From: Lachnospiraceae bacterium | Lineage (GTDB): Bacteria > Bacillota > Clostridia > Lachnospirales > Lachnospiraceae | Assembly (NCBI GenBank): GCA_902363825.1 | Contig: CABJBK010000022.1 | Coordinates: forward strand, 1 to 19,465 | Reading direction: 5' to 3' | Length of the DNA stretch: 19,465 nucleotides | Part shown: positions 4,065-18,786 of the stretch, piece by piece | Numbering within the stretch: the first letter of the stretch is position 1 | How the letters are laid out: every line of letters begins with the position of its first letter | The notes under the pieces: generated by a model | Seen by the model: only the letters and a program-made list of their open reading frames with translations | The model's database searches: none | What the model was told of the DNA's origin: nothing | Position numbers and translations under genes: made by a program

Positions 4065-4154
4065 GAAGGACACAACAAAATAAATCAATAAAAATGATTA
4101 AATTTAACCATTCATTTTTCCAATGTCCTGTGATAGGATATAGAAACATGAAAA

Positions 4155-4450
4155 GCTGTGAAAAGGAATAGTAACTGCATGCGTTTCCGAAAAGAGAGCT
4201 GTCGGGTGGTGCGAGACAGTGGGGACAAAGCGGCGAACTCACCTTCGAGCTTCCGGCTGAATCAGTTTTGCGTGACCGGCAAAGGATCCCGCAAAAGGAA
4301 ATAGGTTGTGACGGATACCCACCGTTAGCGGGGCACGGCATGTTTGTGCCGGATGAGTGCATGTGTTACATGAAATAGAGTGGTACCGCGAAAGAATTAT
4401 TCTTCCGTCTCTATGATCTTTCAAAAGATATAGAGGGCGGATTTTTTTTC
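4155..4450 (+). promoter_or_regulatory. Leucine T-box riboswitch upstream of leuA
   Basis: Stem I carries the AGAGAGCTGTCGG...GGTGCGAGACAG pattern (about 4193-4219). The specifier region GAACTCACC places a CTC leucine codon at 4238-4240. The conserved T-box TGGTACCGCG is at 4381-4390. The alternative terminator pairs about 4405-4420 with 4424-4440, followed by eight Ts (4442-4449). Uncharged tRNA-Leu should stabilise the antiterminator and allow transcription of leuA. The 5' edge is approximate and I did not find a convincing promoter. Confidence 0.93.
4405..4449 (+). terminator. T-box intrinsic terminator
   Basis: CCGTCTCTAT and ATAGAGGGCGG form the stem with a loop containing GATCTTTCAAAAGAT, followed by a run of eight Ts. 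It competes with the antiterminator that includes the T-box sequence at 4381-4390. Confidence 0.88.
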
Positions 4451-4487
4451 GCCCAAAACGAAAAACATGGTATGGAGGTCAGGAAAA

Positions 4488-6494
4488 ATGAAGAATGCAA
4501 ACAAGTATATGAGACAGTATTTTATGCCGCCGGTGTGTGAATACGACTGGGTGAAAAAAGATTATGTGGACGCGCCGCCGATCTGGTGCTCCGTGGATCT
4601 CCGGGACGGCAACCAGGCATTGATCGAGCCGATGAGTTTAGAGGAAAAGCTGGAGTTTTTCCGGATGCTCGTAAAGATCGGGTTTAAGGAGATCGAAGTA
4701 GGATTTCCGGCGGCTTCCGAGACAGAATTTGACTTTATGCGCGCGCTGATCGAGCGGGATATGATCCCGGATGACGTGACCGTGCAGGTACTGACACAGG
4801 CGAGAGAACATATCATCAAAAAGACGTTTGAGGCGGTGAAAGGAGCGCCGCACGCAGTCATACATCTTTACAATTCCACCTCGGTGGCGCAGAGAGAGCA
4901 GGTATTTAAAAAAGATAAAGAGCAGATCAAAAAGCTTGCGGTGGACGGTGCAAAGCTGTTAAAGAAACTGGCGGATGAGACAGAGGGAGATTTCTCCTTT
5001 GAGTACAGCCCGGAGAGTTTTCATGGTACGGAAGTCGATTATGCGGTGGAAGTGTGCAATGCGGTACTTGAAGTATGGAAACCGACAGCAGAAAACAAGG
5101 CGATCATCAATATCCCGGCAACCGTAGAGACCGCAATGCCGCATGTATTCGCGACACAGATCGAGTATGTCAGCAAAAATTTGAAATACCGCGACCATGT
5201 TGTGTTAAGCCTGCATCCGCACAACGACAGAGGCTGTGGAGTCGCGGACGCGGAATTGGGTATGTTAGCAGGGGCTGACCGGATCGAAGGAACGCTGTTC
5301 GGAAACGGGGAGCGCACCGGAAATGTGGATATCATCACGATCGCGATGAACATGTTTTCCCATGGGATCGATCCGAAACTGGATTTCTCGGATATGCCAA
5401 AGATCCGTGAGACCTACGAGAGACTGACCGGCATGCAGGTCTACGCACGCCAGCCATACGCCGGAGATCTGGTGTTTACGGCATTTTCCGGCTCCCATCA
5501 GGATGCGATCGCCAAAGGTATGGCGTTCCGGGAGGAGAAAAAGGCGGAGAAATGGACGGTGCCGTATCTGCCGATCGACCCAGTGGATGTGGGACGCACC
5601 TACGACTCGGACGTTATCCGTATCAACAGCCAGTCCGGAAAGGGCGGTATCAGCTATATCTTAAAACAGAACTTCAGTATTTCGCTGCCGGAAAAAATGC
5701 GTGAGGAAGTCGGTTACGCGGTAAAACAGGTATCAGATGAGGAACATAAGGAACTGTCTCCGCAGTGGGTATATGAGATCTTTGAGGAAAATTACATGAA
5801 CCATACGCCGTATTTCCACATCAGCGAGTGTCATTTCAAGCAGAATGACGGGATCATGGCGGAGGCAACGATCTGCCACGGAGAGAAAAAGACCATCGTG
5901 GATGCAAACGGAAACGGGCGTCTTGACGCAGTCAGCAACATTTTGAAAGAATTTTTCGGGATCAGCTATGAACTTTCGGTTTATGAGGAACATGCGCTCT
6001 CCCACGGATCGTCATCCAAGGCAATGTCCTATGTCGGTATTACCTGCGATGGAAAGATGTACTGGGGCGCGGGCGTGAACGAAGATATCATCAAGGCATC
6101 GATCCATGCGCTGACCGTAGCGGTCAATAAACTGCCGCAGGTAAAAAATGATGAAAAATGTGAAGACGACAGACTGGTTTCTATGTTAAACTTTATACAG
6201 ACCAACTATCAGACCGTGACACTGGAAGATATGGCGGAGCAGTTCCATTTATCCGAGCCGTACATTTCCAAATACATCAAGGACAGATCCGGGCAGACAT
6301 TCGGAGAACATGTGGCGGGGATCCGTATGAAACGTGCGAAGAGCCTGTTAAAAAACGGAAACATGACGGTTGAGAATATTGCATACGCGGTTGGCTATCA
6401 GAATGTGGAGCATTTTAACCGGGTATTTAAAAAGAACATGGAAATGACGCCGGTCCAGTACCGGAATTTGAGCCGGGAGAACGGCGGCGTATAA
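4488..6494 (+). CDS. leuA: 2-isopropylmalate synthase fused to an AraC-type DNA-binding domain
   Basis: A 668-residue protein. It would condense 2-ketoisovalerate with acetyl-CoA, the first committed step to leucine. Residues 1-550 are a complete type-2 LeuA. The TIM barrel has DLRDGN (37-42), EVGFPAASETEFD, the HPHND metal motif (243-247) and GNGERTGN (272-279). The C-terminal regulatory/dimer domain spans about 430-548. After a short charged linker (about 551-561), residues 562-662 are a full AraC/XylS double helix-turn-helix, with LEDMAEQFHLSEPYISKYIK and ENIAYAVGYQNVEHFNRVFKK followed by TPVQYR. LeuA normally ends near 550-560, so this domain is an extra of about 100 residues. I choose ATG 4488 because GGAGGT lies eight bases upstream; the in-frame ATG at 4467 has no such site. 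The leucine T-box controls it. Whether the fusion binds DNA is unknown. Confidence 0.93.
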   Translation: MKNANKYMRQYFMPPVCEYDWVKKDYVDAPPIWCSVDLRDGNQALIEPMSLEEKLEFFRMLVKIGFKEIEVGFPAASETEFDFMRALIERDMIPDDVTVQVLTQAREHIIKKTFEAVKGAPHAVIHLYNSTSVAQREQVFKKDKEQIKKLAVDGAKLLKKLADETEGDFSFEYSPESFHGTEVDYAVEVCNAVLEVWKPTAENKAIINIPATVETAMPHVFATQIEYVSKNLKYRDHVVLSLHPHNDRGCGVADAELGMLAGADRIEGTLFGNGERTGNVDIITIAMNMFSHGIDPKLDFSDMPKIRETYERLTGMQVYARQPYAGDLVFTAFSGSHQDAIAKGMAFREEKKAEKWTVPYLPIDPVDVGRTYDSDVIRINSQSGKGGISYILKQNFSISLPEKMREEVGYAVKQVSDEEHKELSPQWVYEIFEENYMNHTPYFHISECHFKQNDGIMAEATICHGEKKTIVDANGNGRLDAVSNILKEFFGISYELSVYEEHALSHGSSSKAMSYVGITCDGKMYWGAGVNEDIIKASIHALTVAVNKLPQVKNDEKCEDDRLVSMLNFIQTNYQTVTLEDMAEQFHLSEPYISKYIKDRSGQTFGEHVAGIRMKRAKSLLKNGNMTVENIAYAVGYQNVEHFNRVFKKNMEMTPVQYRNLSRENGGV

Positions 6495-6517
6495 CAATAA
6501 AAAAGCAGGTGGAATAT

Positions 6518-7543
6518 ATGATAACGATCAAAGATATGGCGGAGATTGCGGGAGTGAGCCCGACAACAGTGGCGAATGTCCTGCATGGAAGGACAAAAAA
6601 GATGTCAAAAGAGACGTTAAAAAAGGTTCAGGATGTCATTGACCGTTCGAATTATGTTTCCAATATGGGCGCGCGGGTTCTGGCAAATTATGGCTCCAGG
6701 ATCATTGGAGTCATTATGAATTACGACAGAAGAGCCGAGAACAACGCACTGTCCGATCCGTTTTACGGAACGATCGTCGGAGCGCTGGAAAAAGAGATCC
6801 GTGAGCACGGGTATTACATGATGCTCTATATGGCGGGGAGCATTGAGGAGACGGTGCGCCTTGCGTCTTCGTGGAATATCGAGGGGCTGGTGGCGCTTGG
6901 ATGCCGGCCGGATGAGGCGCGAAAGATCCGTCAGCAGATGGAGCTTCCGGTCGTTCTGATCGATTCTTATTTTGAGGATGGGGTGGAAGACTGCTATAAT
7001 GTAGGGCTGGATGACTTTGGCGGAGGCTATCGGATGACCAGTTATCTGATCCGCCAGGGACACCGTCATATTGCGTTTTTAGCTGATGAGAAAGAGCCGG
7101 TGGGGGTAGATCGTGAACGGCTCAAAGGGTATCAGAAGGCACTGGAAGAAAATGGGATCGAATTCCGGGAGAAAGATTATATCCCGCTCAGTTTCCGGAA
7201 ACAGACGAGACACACCAGACTGTGGGAATTTTCGCAGGATCGGATCTCAGAATACACGGCGCTTTTCTTTGCGTCAGATTTTTACGCGAGTGACGCGGTC
7301 AATATTTTCCGGACGCAGGGGATCCGTGTGCCGGAGGATATTTCCATCGTCGGGTTTGATGATAATGTCTTTGCGGAACATTGCAGACCGATGCTCACAA
7401 CGGTGCAGCAGGTGGTTGCGGACAAAGCGTACTATGCGTTTGATATGCTTCATAAGCTGATCAAAGGCGAGGAGTGCCCGGAATCGAACATTCATCTGCC
7501 GGTAAAACTGGTCATCCGGGAAAGTGTGAAGAAACTGGGTTAA
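6518..7543 (+). CDS. LacI-family repressor of the alpha-glucoside operon
   Basis: A 341-residue regulator. The LacI helix-turn-helix is at the N-terminus (IKDMAEIAGVSPTTVANVLHG), with a slightly long hinge stretch (RTKKMS) and the hinge helix near RVLANYGSR. A periplasmic-binding-protein-like sensor domain follows, ending in SIVGFDD and a C-terminal PVKLVIRES. The ATG at 6518 follows AGGTGG by five bases; the in-frame GTG at 6509 lies inside that site. It starts 23 bases after leuA with no terminator between, so it is probably transcribed from the leucine T-box leader. The two palindromes in front of the next operon are its likely targets. The sugar ligand cannot be read from sequence. Confidence 0.92.
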   Translation: MITIKDMAEIAGVSPTTVANVLHGRTKKMSKETLKKVQDVIDRSNYVSNMGARVLANYGSRIIGVIMNYDRRAENNALSDPFYGTIVGALEKEIREHGYYMMLYMAGSIEETVRLASSWNIEGLVALGCRPDEARKIRQQMELPVVLIDSYFEDGVEDCYNVGLDDFGGGYRMTSYLIRQGHRHIAFLADEKEPVGVDRERLKGYQKALEENGIEFREKDYIPLSFRKQTRHTRLWEFSQDRISEYTALFFASDFYASDAVNIFRTQGIRVPEDISIVGFDDNVFAEHCRPMLTTVQQVVADKAYYAFDMLHKLIKGEECPESNIHLPVKLVIRESVKKLG

Positions 7544-7579
7544 GGATCGCAAACGGAAATAAATAGGTAAGACAGACAG

Positions 7580-7624
7580 GAGACATCTGTTGTGCAAAAT
7601 GCACATAGGATGTCTCTTTTTATT
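7580..7624 (+). terminator. Terminator after the LacI gene
   Basis: GAGACATC (7580-7587) pairs with GATGTCTC (7609-7616). Inside, TGTGCA pairs with TGCACA around three As. A T-rich tail (7616-7624) follows. It closes the leuA-lacI unit before the sugar operon promoter. Confidence 0.85.
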
Positions 7625-7632
7625 GTGAAAAT

Positions 7633-7656
7633 AATAGGTGTTACACAACACCTATT
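7633..7656 (+). promoter_or_regulatory. Upstream LacI-type operator (O1)
   Basis: A perfect inverted repeat with 10-base arms, AATAGGTGTT and AACACCTATT, around ACAC. Its right end reaches into the -35 element at 7655. The core GGTGTT-N4-AACACC recurs at 7701-7716, with centres 64 bases apart, about six helical turns. This fits a repressor that binds both and loops the promoter. Confidence 0.85.
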
Positions 7657-7683
7657 GCCGTATGTAGGGGAAAATGATACCAT
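7655..7683 (+). promoter_or_regulatory. Promoter of the alpha-glucoside operon
   Basis: TTGCCG (7655-7660) and TACCAT (7678-7683) are 17 bases apart. Both LacI-type operators flank it: one touches the -35, the other starts about 17 bases after the -10, over the first transcribed bases. The gene start is at 7740 after AGGAGGG. Confidence 0.65.
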
Positions 7684-7700
7684 ATGCATTGTAAGGGAAA

Positions 7701-7716
7701 GGTGTTACGCAACACC
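7701..7716 (+). promoter_or_regulatory. Downstream LacI-type operator (O2)
   Basis: GGTGTTACGCAACACC is a 16-base palindrome apart from the central bases. It has the same arms as the upstream operator and the central CG step typical of LacI-family sites. It lies just after the expected transcription start, so binding would block initiation or escape. Confidence 0.85.
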
Positions 7717-7739
7717 AACATTATTTAGGAGGGATTTAT

Positions 7740-9038
7740 ATGAAAGGGAAAAAGATTGTAGCACTTGGATTGATCGCTGTAATGACAGGGAGCATGCTGG
7801 CAGGATGTGGGGGTACATCCGGCGGCGAAAGCGGAACCGAACAGACGGCAAAGAGCGATGGAGGAACGGTGGAACTTGAACTGTTTTCCAGTAAAACAGA
7901 GAATGCGGACGCACTGCAGAAGATGATCGATGGATTTATGGAACAGAATCCGGACATCAAGATCACGCTCACCTCAGAGTCGGATGCCGCAACAGTTTTA
8001 AAAACAAGACTGACCAAGAATGATATTCCGGAGCTTATCTCAATGGGCGGTGATTCCAACTATACCGAGCTTCAGAGCGCGGGCGTACTGCTTGACTTGA
8101 GCGGAGACGATTTCATCTCCGAAGTGCAGGATGCATATCTTGAGATGCTTTATGATGTAAATGTTGACAAGGAACAGGCAGCATATGGCGTACCGTACGC
8201 AACCAATGCTTCCGGCGTTTTATATAATGAAGACCTGTTTGCGCAGGCTGGAGTGGAAGTGCCAAAGACCTGGAGCGAGTTTCAGGATGTTATAACAAAG
8301 CTGGAGGATGCGGGAATCACACCGTTTGAATTCACCTTCGCGGACAGCTGGACCTGCCTCCCGCCGTGGAACAGTATGGCACCGGTCATCCCGGCAGCAG
8401 ACTTTACCGATCAGAGAAAAGAAGGAAAAACAACATTTGTCGGTACACATGAAGAGATCCTGGAAAAATATCTGTCGCTTTTGGATCATGCACAGGATGA
8501 TTTCATGGGAACCACCTACACAGACGGTAACGCAGCATTCGCAAATGGCAGTGCGGCAATGATGATCAACGGAAACTGGGCAATTTCCGAGTTCTTAAAT
8601 ACAAATCCGGATATGAATGTCAATATGTTTGCATTCCCGTCCGTAGATGATGAGAGCAAAAACACGGTAACTTCCGGTGTAGACGTATTATTCGCAGTAT
8701 CCAACCAGGGAAGCGAAGAGCAGCAGGAAGCAGCAAAAGAATTTATCCGCTACGCGCTGACCAAAGATGTTGCACAGGAATATATTGACGATCAGTTCGC
8801 ATTCTCCGCAGTAAACGGTGTGGAACAGCAGAATGAGACGGTATCCGGTGTCGCAAAAGATATCGCGAACGGCAAGGTATCCAACTTCCCGGATCACTAC
8901 TATCCGAACGGATTTGATCTGTCAACGATCTTACAGCAGTTTGCTTTAAATAAAGTAAATGGCATGGATGATACCGAAAATATATCAGAAACACTGGCAT
9001 CCTGTGACGAGCAGTACGATGCGGCAAATGTAGAATAA
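7740..9038 (+). CDS. Sugar ABC transporter substrate-binding lipoprotein
   Basis: A 432-residue extracellular solute-binding protein of family 1 (MalE-like). The signal ends in a lipobox, SMLAGC, placing the lipid on C23, followed by a Gly/Ser-rich spacer. The mature part has the usual SBP_1 features: VELELFSSKT at the start of the first lobe, a hinge around AYGVPYATNASGVLYNEDLF, PKTWSEFQDVITKLEDAG, and FANGSAAMMINGNWAISEF near residue 280. It is the first gene of the operon, with AGGAGGG seven bases before the ATG. The downstream isomaltase-type glucosidase suggests the ligand is isomaltose, panose or related alpha-1,6 gluco-oligosaccharides, which is inference. Confidence 0.93.
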   Translation: MKGKKIVALGLIAVMTGSMLAGCGGTSGGESGTEQTAKSDGGTVELELFSSKTENADALQKMIDGFMEQNPDIKITLTSESDAATVLKTRLTKNDIPELISMGGDSNYTELQSAGVLLDLSGDDFISEVQDAYLEMLYDVNVDKEQAAYGVPYATNASGVLYNEDLFAQAGVEVPKTWSEFQDVITKLEDAGITPFEFTFADSWTCLPPWNSMAPVIPAADFTDQRKEGKTTFVGTHEEILEKYLSLLDHAQDDFMGTTYTDGNAAFANGSAAMMINGNWAISEFLNTNPDMNVNMFAFPSVDDESKNTVTSGVDVLFAVSNQGSEEQQEAAKEFIRYALTKDVAQEYIDDQFAFSAVNGVEQQNETVSGVAKDIANGKVSNFPDHYYPNGFDLSTILQQFALNKVNGMDDTENISETLASCDEQYDAANVE

Positions 9039-9057
9039 AAACAAAAGAGGCGTTTGT

Positions 9058-9930
9058 ATGAGACAGAAAAATAGAATTAACAAGGCATTTTATATTATGA
9101 CAGTGCCGATGGCGATCCTGTTTTTCTGTTTTCATACCTTTCCGTTTCTGCAGGGTGTGTTTTACAGCTTTACGGACTGGAAAGGATATGGAAACTGGAA
9201 ATTTGTAGGATTGCGTAATTATCTTCATATCTTTCAGGATAAAAATGTGCTCTCTGCATACCTTTTTACTTTTGAATTCGCGGTCTGCGCGACCATACTG
9301 GTCAACGTGTTAAGTCTTTTGGTGGCATGCGCGCTGAATGCGAAGATCAAATGTAAAAACTTCTTAAAAGCAGTCTTTTTCCTGCCGTATATGCTTGGAA
9401 CACTGATCATCAGCTATGTATTTAAATACATTTTTTCCAACATCATTCCGGCGTTCGGAAAGGCACTCGGCATTGCGGCGTTAAGCAGCAATGTACTCGG
9501 AACCAATCATGCGTGGATCGGGGTACTGGTGGTTACGGTATGGCAGTCCATGGCGTTTAATACGCTGATCTATCTCTCAGGACTGCAGACGGTAGACCGT
9601 GATCTCTATGAGGCTGCGGCACTGGATGGCGCGACCGGCTGGAAACGCTTTATCAAGATCACGTTTCCGCTGATCGCACCGTTCTTTACGATCAACATGG
9701 TCCTTAGCGGAAAAAATTTCCTGATGGCATTTGATCAGTTTATCGCAATGACCAACGGCGGACCCGGAACGGCAACCACAACGATCTCCGTGCTGATCTA
9801 TAAGAAAGGCTTCAGTGGCGGACAGTTCGCATACCAGTCGGCAAATGCGGTGGTACTGTTCTTAGTAGTAGTATTGATCTCGGTATTTCAGCTTCGGGTA
9901 TTGGAGCGAAGGGAGGCGAAGGTGAACTGA
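9058..9930 (+). CDS. Sugar ABC transporter permease, MalF/UgpA type
   Basis: A 290-residue inner-membrane permease with six predicted helices. It carries the EAA signature that contacts the ATPase (EAAALDGATGWKRFIKITFP, about residues 184-203) and the family's FTDWKGYGNWKFVGLRNY near the N-terminus. It starts 19 bases after the binding protein stop and shares one base with the next permease (TGATG), so it is translationally coupled. It forms a heterodimer with that permease. No ATPase gene follows, so a shared MsmX/MsmK-type ATPase encoded elsewhere is expected. Confidence 0.93.
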   Translation: MRQKNRINKAFYIMTVPMAILFFCFHTFPFLQGVFYSFTDWKGYGNWKFVGLRNYLHIFQDKNVLSAYLFTFEFAVCATILVNVLSLLVACALNAKIKCKNFLKAVFFLPYMLGTLIISYVFKYIFSNIIPAFGKALGIAALSSNVLGTNHAWIGVLVVTVWQSMAFNTLIYLSGLQTVDRDLYEAAALDGATGWKRFIKITFPLIAPFFTINMVLSGKNFLMAFDQFIAMTNGGPGTATTTISVLIYKKGFSGGQFAYQSANAVVLFLVVVLISVFQLRVLERREAKVN

Positions 9931-10775
9931 TGGAACAGGTGATAAAAACAAAAAAAGAAAAGGCAAATCTGCCACTTACACTGCTTTTATTTCTGATCGC
10001 GATCCTGTTCATTTTCGGACCGCTCTATATGACAGTAGTGATAGCCTTAAAAAGTCCGCAGGAGATGGGAAATGTGCTTGCACTTCCAAAGAGCATCCAG
10101 TGGAGCAATTTCACGAAGGCATGGGAGATGACAGATTATCCGAGAAAATTCGGAAACACATTGTTTATTACGCTGGTAAATCTCGTATTTACCGTATTTA
10201 CCAATGCGATGGCTTCCTACGCGATCGCGAGAAACCGTAAAAAGAGCAGATTTTTCAATTTCCTGTATTACTATTTTATCAGCGCAATGTTCATTCCGTT
10301 TAATGTTCTGATGCTTCCGTTAGTAAATGAGGCAAATAAATTTCATATCGATAATGTCATCGGTATCACATTTTTGTATATTGTATTCGGTATGCCGATG
10401 AATACGTTTCTGTATACCGGCTATATCAAATCCATACCGGAAGCGCTTGATGAGGCGGCAGTGATCGACGGCGCAACGCCGATCCAGACCTTTGTGCTTA
10501 TCATGTTTCCGATGTTAAAGCCGATGACGGCGACGGTTGCGATCCTGTCCGTGATGTGGACGTGGAATGACTTTCTGATGCCGCTCGTACTTTTAAGTGA
10601 CAAGAGCCAGCAGACATTACAGCTTGCGCAGTACATTTTCCAGGGACAGTTCAATACGCAGTATAACCTGGCATTTGCCTCGTATCTGCTAGTTCTGCTT
10701 CCGGTGCTGATCTTTTATGTGATCTGCCAGAAATGGATCATTTCCGGTGTTGTGACCGGTGCGGTAAAACAGTAA
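9930..10775 (+). CDS. Sugar ABC transporter permease, MalG/UgpE type
   Basis: A 281-residue permease. A short cytoplasmic N-terminus rich in lysine is followed by six helices. The EAA loop is EAAVIDGATPIQTFVLIMFP (about residues 172-191), as in MalG-type subunits. The ATG overlaps the stop of the first permease. It partners that protein in the membrane. The next gene, a glucosidase, starts 27 bases downstream without a terminator. Confidence 0.93.
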   Translation: MEQVIKTKKEKANLPLTLLLFLIAILFIFGPLYMTVVIALKSPQEMGNVLALPKSIQWSNFTKAWEMTDYPRKFGNTLFITLVNLVFTVFTNAMASYAIARNRKKSRFFNFLYYYFISAMFIPFNVLMLPLVNEANKFHIDNVIGITFLYIVFGMPMNTFLYTGYIKSIPEALDEAAVIDGATPIQTFVLIMFPMLKPMTATVAILSVMWTWNDFLMPLVLLSDKSQQTLQLAQYIFQGQFNTQYNLAFASYLLVLLPVLIFYVICQKWIISGVVTGAVKQ

Positions 10776-10802
10776 AGAAAAGAGAAAAGTGAGGAAAAAG
10801 AT

Positions 10803-12473
10803 ATGAAAAACGCATGGTGGAAAGAATCTGTGATCTACCAGATCTATCCGAGAAGCTTCTGCGACAGCAACGGCGACGGCATCGGAGACATCCAGGGTAT
10901 CATAAGCAAGTTAGACTATTTGAAGCGGCTTGGGATCGATATTATCTGGCTTTCTCCGGTCTATGAATCACCGAATGACGATAACGGATATGATATCAGT
11001 GATTACAGAAAGATCATGAAAGAATTCGGAAGCATGGAGGATTTTGACCGGCTTCTGGCGGAAGCGCATGTGCGCAACATCCGTATCATCATGGATCTCG
11101 TGGTCAACCATACATCCGATGAACATGCATGGTTTGTGGAGAGCAGAAAGAGCAGGGAAAACCCGTACCGTGATTTTTACATCTGGAAAGAGGGAAAAGA
11201 CGGAAAAGAGCCGAATAACTGGGGATCCTGGTTCGGCGGAAGCGCATGGCAGTATGATGAGATGACCGATATGTATTATCTGCATATTTTCTCGAAAAAG
11301 CAGCCGGATCTGAACTGGGATAACGCGGATGTAAGAACGCAGGTCTATGATATGATGCGCTGGTGGCTGGAAAAGGGCGTGGATGGTTTCCGCATGGATG
11401 TCATCAGCCTGATCTCCAAAAACCCGGATTTCCCGGATGGTGAGGTAAAAGGGCTGTATGGGGATCTGACCCCGTACTGCGCGCATGGCCCGCATGTCCA
11501 TGAATATTTACAGGAAATGAACCGCGAAGTGCTCTCAAAATACGATATCATGACGGTTGGAGAGACCGCATGCGTAACACTTGAAGAAGCGAAAAAGTAT
11601 GCGGGAGAAGACAGAAACGAGTTAAATATGGTATTCCAGTTTGAACATGTGGAACTCGGAAGCGGAAAATACGGAAAGTGGAACGATGCTCCGGTCGATC
11701 TGGTGCAACTTAAGAAAGTGTTCAAAAAATGGGAAGAAGGCCTTGAGGGGATCGGCTGGAATGCGCTGTTCTGGGGCAACCACGATCAGCCAAGGGCGGT
11801 TTCCAGATTCGGGGACGACAAAGAATACCGTGAGTGCTCCGCGAAAATGCTCGGTGTCTGCCTGCATCTGATGAAGGGTACGCCTTATATCTATCAGGGC
11901 GAGGAACTCGGCATGACAAACGCCGGTTTTGAGAATCTTTCAGATTACAGGGATCTGGAATCGATCAATGCGTACCATGAGCTGGTGGAGGAACAGGATG
12001 TCCCGGCAGAGCAGATGATGACTTATTTAAAGAAGATCAGCAGGGACAACGCGAGAACCCCGATGCAGTGGAATGATGAGGAAAATGCCGGATTCACGAC
12101 CGGAACGCCGTGGATCGCAGTCAATAAAAATTACAGAGAGATCAACGCGAAAGCGCAGATCAAAGATCCGGATTCTGTATACAATTTTTACCGGAAGCTG
12201 ATCCAGCTGCGGCATGAGGAGGAGATCGTGGTACACGGCAGCTTTGAGATGCTCTCAGAGGACAGCGAGCAGATCTTTGCGTATCAGCGTGTGCTCGATG
12301 ATACAAAGCTGGTGGTGTTATGCAATTTCACGCCGAACCATGTGGCATTTGACGGATTGCCGAAGAAAGCAAAGATCGTGATCACAAACTACAAGACCGA
12401 GGGCGGATCGTTTCTGCGGCCTTATGAGGCAGTGGCGTATAAAGTTCCGGTGGAGGAATCTTCAGATAAGTAA
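10803..12473 (+). CDS. GH13_31 alpha-glucosidase, probable oligo-1,6-glucosidase (isomaltase)
   Basis: A 556-residue cytoplasmic glycoside hydrolase, full length for the GH13_31 group. The conserved regions are present: DLVVNH (98-103), QPDLNW (167-172), FRMDV with nucleophile D199, VGE with acid/base E254, and NHDQ with D328. A calcium-type loop (DSNGDGIGD, 21-29) is also present. The residue after the nucleophile is Val (V200); in this family Val favours alpha-1,6 and Thr favours alpha-1,4 linkages, so hydrolysis of isomaltose-type sugars is predicted. Trehalose-6-phosphate or sucrose activity is less likely but not excluded. It is the last gene of the transporter operon and would cleave the imported oligosaccharides to glucose. 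Confidence 0.93.
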   Translation: MKNAWWKESVIYQIYPRSFCDSNGDGIGDIQGIISKLDYLKRLGIDIIWLSPVYESPNDDNGYDISDYRKIMKEFGSMEDFDRLLAEAHVRNIRIIMDLVVNHTSDEHAWFVESRKSRENPYRDFYIWKEGKDGKEPNNWGSWFGGSAWQYDEMTDMYYLHIFSKKQPDLNWDNADVRTQVYDMMRWWLEKGVDGFRMDVISLISKNPDFPDGEVKGLYGDLTPYCAHGPHVHEYLQEMNREVLSKYDIMTVGETACVTLEEAKKYAGEDRNELNMVFQFEHVELGSGKYGKWNDAPVDLVQLKKVFKKWEEGLEGIGWNALFWGNHDQPRAVSRFGDDKEYRECSAKMLGVCLHLMKGTPYIYQGEELGMTNAGFENLSDYRDLESINAYHELVEEQDVPAEQMMTYLKKISRDNARTPMQWNDEENAGFTTGTPWIAVNKNYREINAKAQIKDPDSVYNFYRKLIQLRHEEEIVVHGSFEMLSEDSEQIFAYQRVLDDTKLVVLCNFTPNHVAFDGLPKKAKIVITNYKTEGGSFLRPYEAVAYKVPVEESSDK

Positions 12474-16309: not shown

Positions 16310-16403
16310 TAAATGTAGTTTCGAGTAGTTAAATTGAAAATCTTTTGATAAAATGAGATCAATAAGAAAAATTTTTAGTTGTAACAGAACGGAGGATGTA
16401 CTT

Positions 16404-17030
16404 ATGGATGAGAATATCAGAAAACGCAACGAATGTCTGGCACAGACTGTGATCAGGGGGTTACAGTCCCGGAATATGTCCGGTTATTATGCGGCAAATA
16501 AGGAAGAAGCAAAAAAGCAGGCATTGGAACTGATCCCGGAGGGCAGCAGGATCGCCATGGGTGGCTGTATGAGCGCACATGAGATTGGACTGATCGAGGC
16601 TCTGGAAGCAGGAAATTACAACTATATTGACCGTTCCAAGCTGGATGCCAGAGCGGGACTTATGGCAGCTTATGATGCCGATGTCTTTCTTTCAAGCGCG
16701 AATGCCATCACAAGCGACGGTATCATGGTCAATATCGATGGAAATTCCAATCGTGTTTCCTGCATTGCACAGGGGCCGAGGAAGGTTGTATTTATCGTTG
16801 GACTGAATAAGGTATGTGACGATCTCGACGGTGCCATGAAGCGCGCCAGAAATGTGGCGGCTCCCTGCAACGCGCAGAGATTCGACATTAAGACCCCATG
16901 TAGGGAGACGGGAAAGTGCTTTGACTGCAAGTCCCCGGATACCATCTGCTGTCAGTTTCTGATCACCAGATATTCCAGACATACGGACAGAATTCATGTG
17001 ATTCTCGTCAATGAAAATCTGGGATTCTGA
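16404..17030 (+). CDS. LUD-domain protein (DUF162, LutC/YkgG-like)
   Basis: A 208-residue protein filling the LUD fold. It has ALELIPEGSRIAMGGCMSAHE near residues 40-60, DARAGLMAAYDADVFLSSAN, VNIDGNSNRVSCIAQGPRKV and VVFIVGLNKVCDDLDGAMKR. The C-terminal 60 residues hold a cysteine cluster (CNAQRF, TPCRETGKCFDCKSPDTICC) that could bind metal or a cluster. Family members include LutC of the lactate oxidase complex; lone short members such as this are mostly uncharacterised, and no lutA or lutB lies nearby. GGAGG precedes ATG 16404 by eight bases. Its GC content looks higher than the decayed DNA before it. It is followed by a flavodoxin gene 66 bases on. Confidence 0.85.
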   Translation: MDENIRKRNECLAQTVIRGLQSRNMSGYYAANKEEAKKQALELIPEGSRIAMGGCMSAHEIGLIEALEAGNYNYIDRSKLDARAGLMAAYDADVFLSSANAITSDGIMVNIDGNSNRVSCIAQGPRKVVFIVGLNKVCDDLDGAMKRARNVAAPCNAQRFDIKTPCRETGKCFDCKSPDTICCQFLITRYSRHTDRIHVILVNENLGF

Positions 17031-17600: not shown

Positions 17601-17696
17601 TGACCTGCTTTTCTTGCTTGCAATATTTGCAGGAATAATCCTTATAAAAGGAATATTAGTAAAAAGTAACAAAACGGTGCTTTGAATTTTGGAACG

Positions 17697-17712
17697 GGTT
17701 ATGCGTTTAACC
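17697..17712 (+). promoter_or_regulatory. LacI-type operator of the second LacI gene
   Basis: GGTTATGCGTTTAACC is a palindrome with mismatches only near the centre and a central CG step. It ends one base before the -35 element. The copy at 12808-12823 agrees at 14 of 16 positions. It probably mediates autoregulation. Confidence 0.78.
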
Positions 17713-17713
17713 G

Positions 17714-17742
17714 TTGAGAAAACGGTGTTTCTACTGTACTAT
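17714..17742 (+). promoter_or_regulatory. Promoter of the second LacI-MATE operon
   Basis: TTGAGA (17714-17719) and TACTAT (17737-17742) are separated by 17 bases, directly after the operator. The gene starts 34 bases after the -10. Confidence 0.72.
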
Positions 17743-17775
17743 GTAATTAAAATATCAGAAAAAAAAGGAATGGGT

Positions 17776-18786
17776 ATGGCGCAGAACAGGGTTCGCATCG
17801 TGGATGTCGCAGATGCATTGGGGCTTAGTACAGCGACGGTTTCAAAAGTGATTCATGGTAAAACCGGCAAGATTTCAGACGAAACAGTAAAACGTGTCCA
17901 GCAGGAGCTCGAAAAGTCAGGATATATCCCCAATATGGCAGGAATATTGCTTGCAAGAAATAATTCAAGAATCATCGGCGTGGTGGTGAATGACCATGTT
18001 AAGTATGAGGGCAGGGTTTTAGAAGATGGATTTGTGATGGCATCATTAAATGCTCTTTCTCACGAGGTGAATGAAAAAGGATATTTTCTGATGATAAAAA
18101 CAACATCAGATATCAGTGAAATTCCGGTGTTTGCTTCCATGTGGAATATGGATGGCCTGATTTTGATGGGGTTTTGCGAAGCGGATTATGAGAAGCTCCG
18201 CAATCAGATGAGAATCTCTTTTGTTGTGTATGATGGTTATTTTGAAAAATGCTCAAAAGTGGTTAATCTGGTAATTGACCACTATGACGGAGGATGTCAG
18301 GCAGGAAAATATTTTAGAGAGCTTGGTCATGAAAAAGCATTATGTATAGCAGATAATTTCATATGCATGGATAAGGAGCGAATCGAAGGATTTTGCAAAG
18401 CGTTTGAGCCGGGTGAGACATTGATATGGCAGATTCCAAAGACCGAAAAGGAAAGAGTATGTTTTTATCAGGATAAATTCTCAGAATTATTAAAGAGCAA
18501 TGTTACAGCTGTTTTTGCGGTATCAGATTTTTATGCACTTGAGTTTATGCGATTTTTACAGGGAAAGGGCATACAAATTCCTGGGGATATACAGATAATC
18601 GGATTTGATGACAATATGTCCAGCAGAGAAAGCAATCCTGCACTTACGACGATTCATCAGGAGGCATCCATCAGGGCAAAAACTGCAATTAAATGTCTTG
18701 AGGCAATGCGCGATGGATTAGACTGTGAGACGGAAATCGTGTTACCGGTTGAATTAGTAAAAAGGGAAAGTACGAGGTTGCTATAA
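17776..18786 (+). CDS. Second LacI-family regulator
   Basis: A 336-residue regulator. The N-terminal helix-turn-helix is VDVADALGLSTATVSKVIHG, followed by the same longer hinge stretch (KTGKIS) as the LacI protein at 6518, then a hinge helix and sensor domain with IIGFDD and LPVELVKRES at the end. The two regulators are clearly related but differ in the recognition helix (STATVSKV against SPTTVANV), in line with different palindromes. I choose ATG 17776, six bases after AGGA; the open frame to 17689 crosses the operator and promoter. Its TAA shares a base with the ATG of the MATE gene, so the two are coupled. It probably controls itself, the MATE exporter and the kinase-like gene at 12911. 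Confidence 0.9.
   Translation: MAQNRVRIVDVADALGLSTATVSKVIHGKTGKISDETVKRVQQELEKSGYIPNMAGILLARNNSRIIGVVVNDHVKYEGRVLEDGFVMASLNALSHEVNEKGYFLMIKTTSDISEIPVFASMWNMDGLILMGFCEADYEKLRNQMRISFVVYDGYFEKCSKVVNLVIDHYDGGCQAGKYFRELGHEKALCIADNFICMDKERIEGFCKAFEPGETLIWQIPKTEKERVCFYQDKFSELLKSNVTAVFAVSDFYALEFMRFLQGKGIQIPGDIQIIGFDDNMSSRESNPALTTIHQEASIRAKTAIKCLEAMRDGLDCETEIVLPVELVKRESTRLL

Follow-up and report, generated by a model that had tools for sequence, protein, structure and literature searches.

A 2-isopropylmalate synthase with a fused AraC-type domain is a probable regulator of its own gene in many gut bacteria

Many gut bacteria carry a leucine-synthesis enzyme, LeuA, joined to an AraC-type DNA-binding domain, and the comparisons reported here suggest that this fused LeuA probably switches its own gene. 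The case was found in a stretch of 19,465 nucleotides from a Lachnospiraceae bacterium (the window), where a whole 2-isopropylmalate synthase and, behind it, an entire AraC-type domain share the open reading frame at 4488–6494 (+). We consider it probable that the protein is an autoregulatory trigger enzyme, a working 2-isopropylmalate synthase that also controls its own gene as a transcription factor.

The leuA-araC gene is a single uninterrupted frame of 668 amino acids plus stop. An alternative ATG at 4467 would lengthen the protein by 7 residues; the start was placed at 4488 because relatives align from that position. Pfam coordinates are given in the longer, 675-residue numbering and identify the HMGL-like catalytic domain (39–315; 4581–5411, +), the post-catalytic IPMS_D2 domain (334–400; 5466–5666, +) and the allosteric LeuA_dimer domain (430–556; 5754–6134, +), which we take to be the leucine site of known LeuA. 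A linker of variable sequence (residues 551–566; 6138–6185, +) leads into the AraC-type DNA-binding domain (6186–6470, +), where the helix-turn-helix (HTH) models HTH_18 (589–667, 73.5 bits, gathering cut-off 33.6) and HTH_AraC (629–667, 49.9 bits, gathering cut-off 26.6) both match. Its predicted recognition helices occupy residues 590–601 (6255–6290) and 640–651 (6405–6440), and the region of the second, GYQNVEHFNRxFKK, is highly conserved. The open frame and these domains bear out the preliminary description of this DNA, which had reported a complete LeuA with its regulatory domain and an in-frame AraC HTH. As in a trigger enzyme, enzyme and DNA-binding domain lie in a single chain.

The NCBIfam model NF002991 (PRK03739) assigns the protein as a 2-isopropylmalate synthase (811.1 bits against a cut-off of 455). 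The VDLRDGNQ and GNGERTGN motifs of the HMGL-like domain are identical in 91/91 fused proteins, and every residue of HPHND in the same domain is kept in 90 or 91 of the 91; all three are presumably the catalytic motifs of LeuA. GNGR of LeuA_dimer (residues 475–478) is likewise identical in all 91. The HTH part has sequence matches to solved AraC domains, and a predicted structure of modest quality (pLDDT 74, pTM 0.51) places seven helices at 561–665, the number expected of a two-HTH AraC-type domain; this part was folded only within the whole protein, for which the listed fold matches were led by the LeuA part. Among the 25 best of 50 models, named AraC regulators (AraC, RhaS, PocR, AryK and others) scored far below their equivalog cut-offs.

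The fusion is widespread. The window's own protein entry (P0024) stands for 587 contigs, and a protein search with residues 540–668 returned 2246 matches, with HTH_18 in 120/120 of those listed and HMGL-like as well in 119. Named genomes were scanned as well, and of 400 confirmed fusion stretches the best 80 were kept; they come from Roseburia, Agathobacter, Butyrivibrio, Coprococcus, Dorea, Hespellia, Faecalicatena, Claveliimonas and others, and the frame is open across the LeuA-HTH junction in all 80 of these best loci, 4 of which are cut by the contig start. In the family of the R. faecis genome (G001, locus L016), 224 of 250 genomes have a LeuA match and at least 59 the full fusion, a lower bound for matches listed down to about 613 bits; across the class, 13 of 391 genomes carry the full fusion at E≤1e-235. 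The database and Lachnospiraceae comparisons proposed in the preliminary description thus show a LeuA-HTH architecture common to many relatives. An assembly error at the junction was rejected on these grounds: 587 contigs, 80/80 related loci open, and relatives that share the fusion.

The fused protein is the sole LeuA at E≤1e-10 in 10/10 named genomes, and two LeuA matches occur in 9 of the 250 family genomes. Some genomes with a fused LeuA hold a second, HTH-less LeuA that is ~50% identical (L120 in G153, L126 in G019). Other AraC domains of the ten named genomes are at most 38% identical to the fused HTH.

Pooled dN/dS over 8 pairs was 0.014 for the HTH, 0.019 for the catalytic domain, 0.007 for D2, 0.024 for LeuA_dimer and 0.034 for the linker. 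Judged by these ratios the fused HTH is under strong purifying selection, as had been suspected from its intact motifs, and relaxed selection was rejected. The preliminary description had named two findings that would tell against the fusion, a frameshift or assembly error at the linker and a lack of fused relatives together with relaxed selection on the AraC part; instead, relatives share the open fusion and the AraC part has a low dN/dS. The linker stretch 551–565 varies in sequence and is 15 residues long in 90/91 fused proteins (14 in the other). By these comparative measures the LeuA-HTH fusion is genuine and ancient, and selection acts on it.

A tree of LeuA residues 1–550, rooted at its midpoint, was built from 117 proteins (91 fused, 26 unfused), after removal of six proteins cut by contig ends (L026, L027, L048, L069, L110, L121) and eight duplicates, which were also left out of the site counts below. 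The fused/unfused label changes 8 times on this tree, with at least 6 changes forced by starred branches, against a mean of 23.8 for shuffled labels. The tree fits a single gain of the HTH at a branch of 102 rows (support 98) and several losses afterwards; some unfused rows have long branches. One contig labelled Muribaculaceae (L015) carries a Lachnospiraceae-type fused leuA that sits beside L020 (end branches 0.009 and 0.010), and is perhaps a mislabelled bin.

Upstream of leuA lies a candidate operator of ~45 bp (4072–4118, +; matrix core 4078–4102, 36.1 bits). It consists of a direct repeat, TTAAAnnnnATCA, around a palindrome, TGATTAAATTTAATCA, with a period of 23, or 22 in another group. 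The motif emerged, with 754 bits, when EM was run on the regions upstream of leuA in 62 fused loci that lack a T-box motif, compared with 145 bits in one block-shuffled control set run with half the seeds. Counting matrix scores above 14 bits within 800 bp upstream of leuA, at fused loci with at least 100 bp of upstream sequence (two shorter ones were omitted, leaving 89 of 91), we found the operator at 82/89 fused, 0/24 HTH-less and 2/2 split-HTH loci (Fisher p ~8e-19 with loci counted as independent and kinship uncorrected). As in a trigger enzyme too, a conserved candidate operator tied to the DNA-binding domain is found in the protein's own promoter.

The only operator-bearing loci among the 26 unfused are L092 and L109, and in both a separate HTH ORF follows directly downstream of leuA; no such HTH was found in the other 24, up to 1500 bp examined, and L122 has a lone 23% HTH match downstream on the opposite strand. 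Since the operator is kept in the two split genomes, the fusion may be dispensable there, unless these are assembly indels. In L092 (G088) the split HTH lies in another frame right after leuA, which ends with eight consecutive A in its terminal part; this could reflect an indel, frameshifting or a genuine split. Seven fused loci have no operator within 800 bp (L023, L041, L045, L070, L113, L114, L128). That of L070 lies farther upstream, and L128 has the sole plainly altered second recognition helix among the 16 proteins compared; this helix is ordinary in the other site-less fused loci compared. Overall, the presence of the operator follows that of the HTH, of which it is the likely target.

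Away from leuA promoters, only 5 matches exceed 14 bits and none exceeds 16 in the loci scanned, which total 1.87 Mb and include overlapping copies. Of 11 loci outside the matrix set, 10 score at least 13.9 bits, 8 of them above 20, and the last 7.6. In whole genomes, sequence models found the leuA operator in 22/24 fused genomes at E≤1 (20 at E<1e-5) and in 30/40 at E≤0.02 in a second scan, part of the scanned fused genomes having provided training sites. In the HTH-less genomes it was absent from the listed matches of all 10 in the first scan (to E ~0.6) and from 40/40 at E≤0.02 in the second. Over both scans model R1 gave no leuA match in 12/64 fused genomes; the sequence model recovered the site of one split genome (G071) and missed that of the other (G088). 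A control pattern with a spacer of 5 instead of 6 gave scattered one-mismatch genome matches, none at leuA.

The site stands in a regular promoter layout. An extended -10 element, TGATAGGAT (4131–4139, +), lies 28 nt after the TGATTAAA half-site, a distance fixed in 71/79 sites; in the loci outside the matrix set a -10 lies at 26–28 nt in 11/11, with kinship to the set left aside. The predicted transcription start is ~4146, three bases before the T-box leader described below, which would put the operator at about -74 to -35. At best spacing the -35 matches 3.4 of 6 positions against 2.5 at random, so a -35 is not absent. In AraC-type class II activation the site location and -10 spacing are those of such a layout, and by this analogy the operator and fixed extended -10 look like an activator arrangement. 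In six Dorea-like loci (L051, L062, L066, L067, L072, L078) the operator is embedded in a long inverted repeat, AAGGAAAGTGAT...CACTTTCCTT, with T-rich sequence after it, an arrangement resembling a terminator of the gene that lies upstream.

Beyond leuA, fused genomes gave ten operator matches at E<1e-3, and six lie before branched-chain genes. Four precede leuC-leuD in a common gene order (G214, G435, G476, G598), with the core 73–84 nt before leuC and, by eye, TGTTATATT at 29 nt. In G198 the operator lies 470 nt upstream of ilvB-ilvN with a T-box between (only E 0.015 in the second model), and in G046 it lies 32 nt upstream of ilvN-ilvC as the central palindrome only (12.9 bits). Gene names behind the extra operators were verified by NCBIfam at L242, L335, L241 and L287. 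Two further matches precede transporter genes behind T-boxes: CstA in R. inulinivorans (G003), with the operator 314 nt upstream and the T-box between, and SBF in G198 (L240), where the site lies behind folD and ahead of the T-box and transporter gene on the same strand; a folD site was rejected because of that position. Operator and T-box thus stand in tandem before the CstA, SBF and ilvB genes (L239, L240, L241). The specifiers, read by eye, are AUC (Ile) for CstA and SBF and GUA (Val) for ilvB; together with the Leu specifier of the window, the operator therefore stands before Leu, Ile and Val T-boxes. The remaining two matches, before PspA_IM30 (G057) and MarR-pheA (G163), have no clear link.

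One HTH-less genome (G186) had a comparable match, E 4.7e-4, before an unrelated gene. No T-box was found in 20 loci around weaker or HTH-less operator matches, including L286, the G163 match. Matches above E 1e-3, such as one at an alanine-dehydrogenase-like ORF (L295), were not counted as targets; nor was a weak operator-like match (E 0.010) before a sodium:neurotransmitter-symporter-family (SNF) gene, named by Pfam, in C. comes (L342, G006). The leuB, ilvD, leuC and ilvC loci of the ten named genomes (L131–L170) have no operator above 14 bits, and any wider regulon is therefore lineage-specific. So leuA is the general target, and leuCD, ilvBN, ilvN-ilvC and transporter genes are lineage-specific ones. 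Neighbouring genes gave no clue to targets, no gene family lying beside more than 12 of the loci compared.

In the window the operator precedes a T-box leader (4149–4415, +; Rfam RF00230, 110.8 bits, cut-off 93) whose specifier, read by eye, is CTC (Leu) at 4238–4240. A T-box motif occurs in 26/91 fused against 15/24 HTH-less leuA leaders (Fisher p 0.0035, kinship uncorrected; an odd L124 match excluded, and three fused loci having short upstreams). Rfam found no T-box in 8 fused loci that lack the motif; among 19 unfused loci it found 12. These counts suggest that T-box and HTH partly exclude each other. The HTH-less L094 has a Clostridiales-1 RNA (RF01699) at 4722–4885, between T-box and leuA.

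Downstream of the fusion, the window holds a LacI-type regulator, sugar ABC transporter genes (membrane subunits by eye) and a GH13 enzyme that scores above the PRK10933 phosphotrehalase subfamily cut-off (6509–12473), and further on a LUD-domain protein (16353–17030) and a second LacI-type regulator (17689–18786). The LacI and sugar ABC genes behind leuA are what might favour the reading that a decayed AraC gene was joined to leuA by chance or by assembly error, or that the partner was a sugar-operon regulator, the last akin to a possibility raised in the preliminary description. We give this almost no credence: the best 80/80 loci are fused and open, neighbour genes are not widely shared, dN/dS is low, and the leuA site is the only one in the window above 14 bits, so there is none at the sugar genes. 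The evidence therefore does not support an accidental joining to a lost sugar regulator. It is also quite improbable that the operator is the site of some other regulator and that the fused HTH has another DNA target or none. Several fused loci with an ordinary HTH do lack the operator, but across the 89 fused and 24 HTH-less loci and the 2 with a split HTH, and through several changes of label on the tree, site and HTH occur together with some exceptions. No other AraC domain of the ten named genomes exceeds 38% identity, and the HTH appears to be under strong purifying selection.

With the pairing of HTH and operator taken as right, the protein might repress the promoter, with leucine or a substrate as co-repressor or inducer; the trigger enzyme PutA represses its own promoter (PMC8249747). 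The operator also lies against the -35 region, where a bound protein could block polymerase. We regard repression as rather doubtful, however, given a site at about -74 to -35 and an extended -10 at a fixed distance, as in AraC-type class II activation. As to the signal, the effector could be a substrate (2-ketoisovalerate, acetyl-CoA) or the catalytic state instead of leucine, which seems on the unlikely side. Yeast Leu3 reads the product alpha-isopropylmalate, which counts for this alternative, as does PutA, which responds to its substrate (PMC8249747). Against it, the HTH lies directly behind the leucine-binding domain with a linker of constant length, and in the window this pathway is also monitored by a leucine T-box.

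We therefore return to the autoregulatory trigger enzyme and propose how it might work. A LeuA dimer would place two AraC-type domains, held at a fixed distance by the 15-residue linker, on the tandem site at about -74 to -35. We infer that the fused HTH binds DNA there, and that it activates rather than represses; the bound fusion would most likely activate the promoter, whose extended -10 is good and whose -35 is middling. LeuA_dimer, beside the linker, is the likely leucine sensor, and feedback inhibition and transcriptional feedback would therefore be coupled in one polypeptide with leucine as effector. The window promoter would feed the leucine T-box as a second, tRNA-based check, and in some lineages the same site would have been added before leuCD, ilvBN, ilvN-ilvC or transporter genes. 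The earlier suggestion that the enzyme acts as a transcription factor sensing substrate or leucine thus gains strong, indirect support in its transcription-factor part, from a candidate operator that comes and goes with the HTH and stands before leuCD, ilvBN and ilvN-ilvC in some lineages. The fuller scheme is one we hold tentatively, at slightly less than an even chance: a Lachnospiraceae single-chain device in which one leucine-binding event inhibits LeuA and, via the AraC domain, resets transcription of leuA (in places also of leuCD, ilv and transporter genes), and which has partly replaced the leucine T-box and been lost several times together with its operator.

Searches of open-licence PMC papers turned up no description of a LeuA-AraC protein, in agreement with the preliminary description, which knew of no case; papers outside open licence could exist. 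Only a handful of trigger enzymes that are also transcription factors have been described, five of them in E. coli K-12 by the count in PMC8249747. The step that the fused enzyme occupies, in Roseburia, Coprococcus, Dorea and many other gut Lachnospiraceae, is the first committed one of leucine synthesis and is subject to feedback inhibition. Because a candidate operator is mapped, natural variants exist (fused, split, without the HTH, with a degenerate HTH) and the same gene has a T-box, the joining of allosteric inhibition and gene control in one protein is directly testable.

Among known systems, E. coli PutA, a proline dehydrogenase, is like the fusion a metabolic enzyme carrying a DNA-binding domain; it acts on its own promoter, as the fusion is proposed to, at a single target region (PMC8249747). 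PutA is catabolic and represses, whereas the fusion is anabolic and feedback-inhibited, has its AraC-type domain at the C-terminus and faces a site of activator-like layout. The DNA-binding domain of PutA is a ribbon-helix-helix. The Ada methyltransferase of E. coli is, like the fusion, an enzyme joined to an AraC-type domain, and activates its own promoter; unlike the fusion, it serves DNA repair through an irreversible methylation switch and has no allosteric end-product domain. BirA and NadR differ in having an N-terminal, non-AraC HTH and in belonging to other pathways. Both are listed as trigger enzymes, enzymes also acting as transcription factors, in PMC8249747, and share with the fusion, as proposed here, the union of enzyme and transcription factor in one protein. 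Mycobacterium tuberculosis LeuA (1SR9, 3FIG, 3U6W) matches the fusion over a sequence that covers no DNA-binding domain. In BzdR the enzyme-like part has a shikimate-kinase fold. As in the fusion, a DNA-binding domain has there been recruited by an enzyme fold (PMC3602430). BzdR, however, is a dedicated regulator, whereas the fusion keeps its catalytic motifs and is the sole LeuA in 10/10 named genomes.
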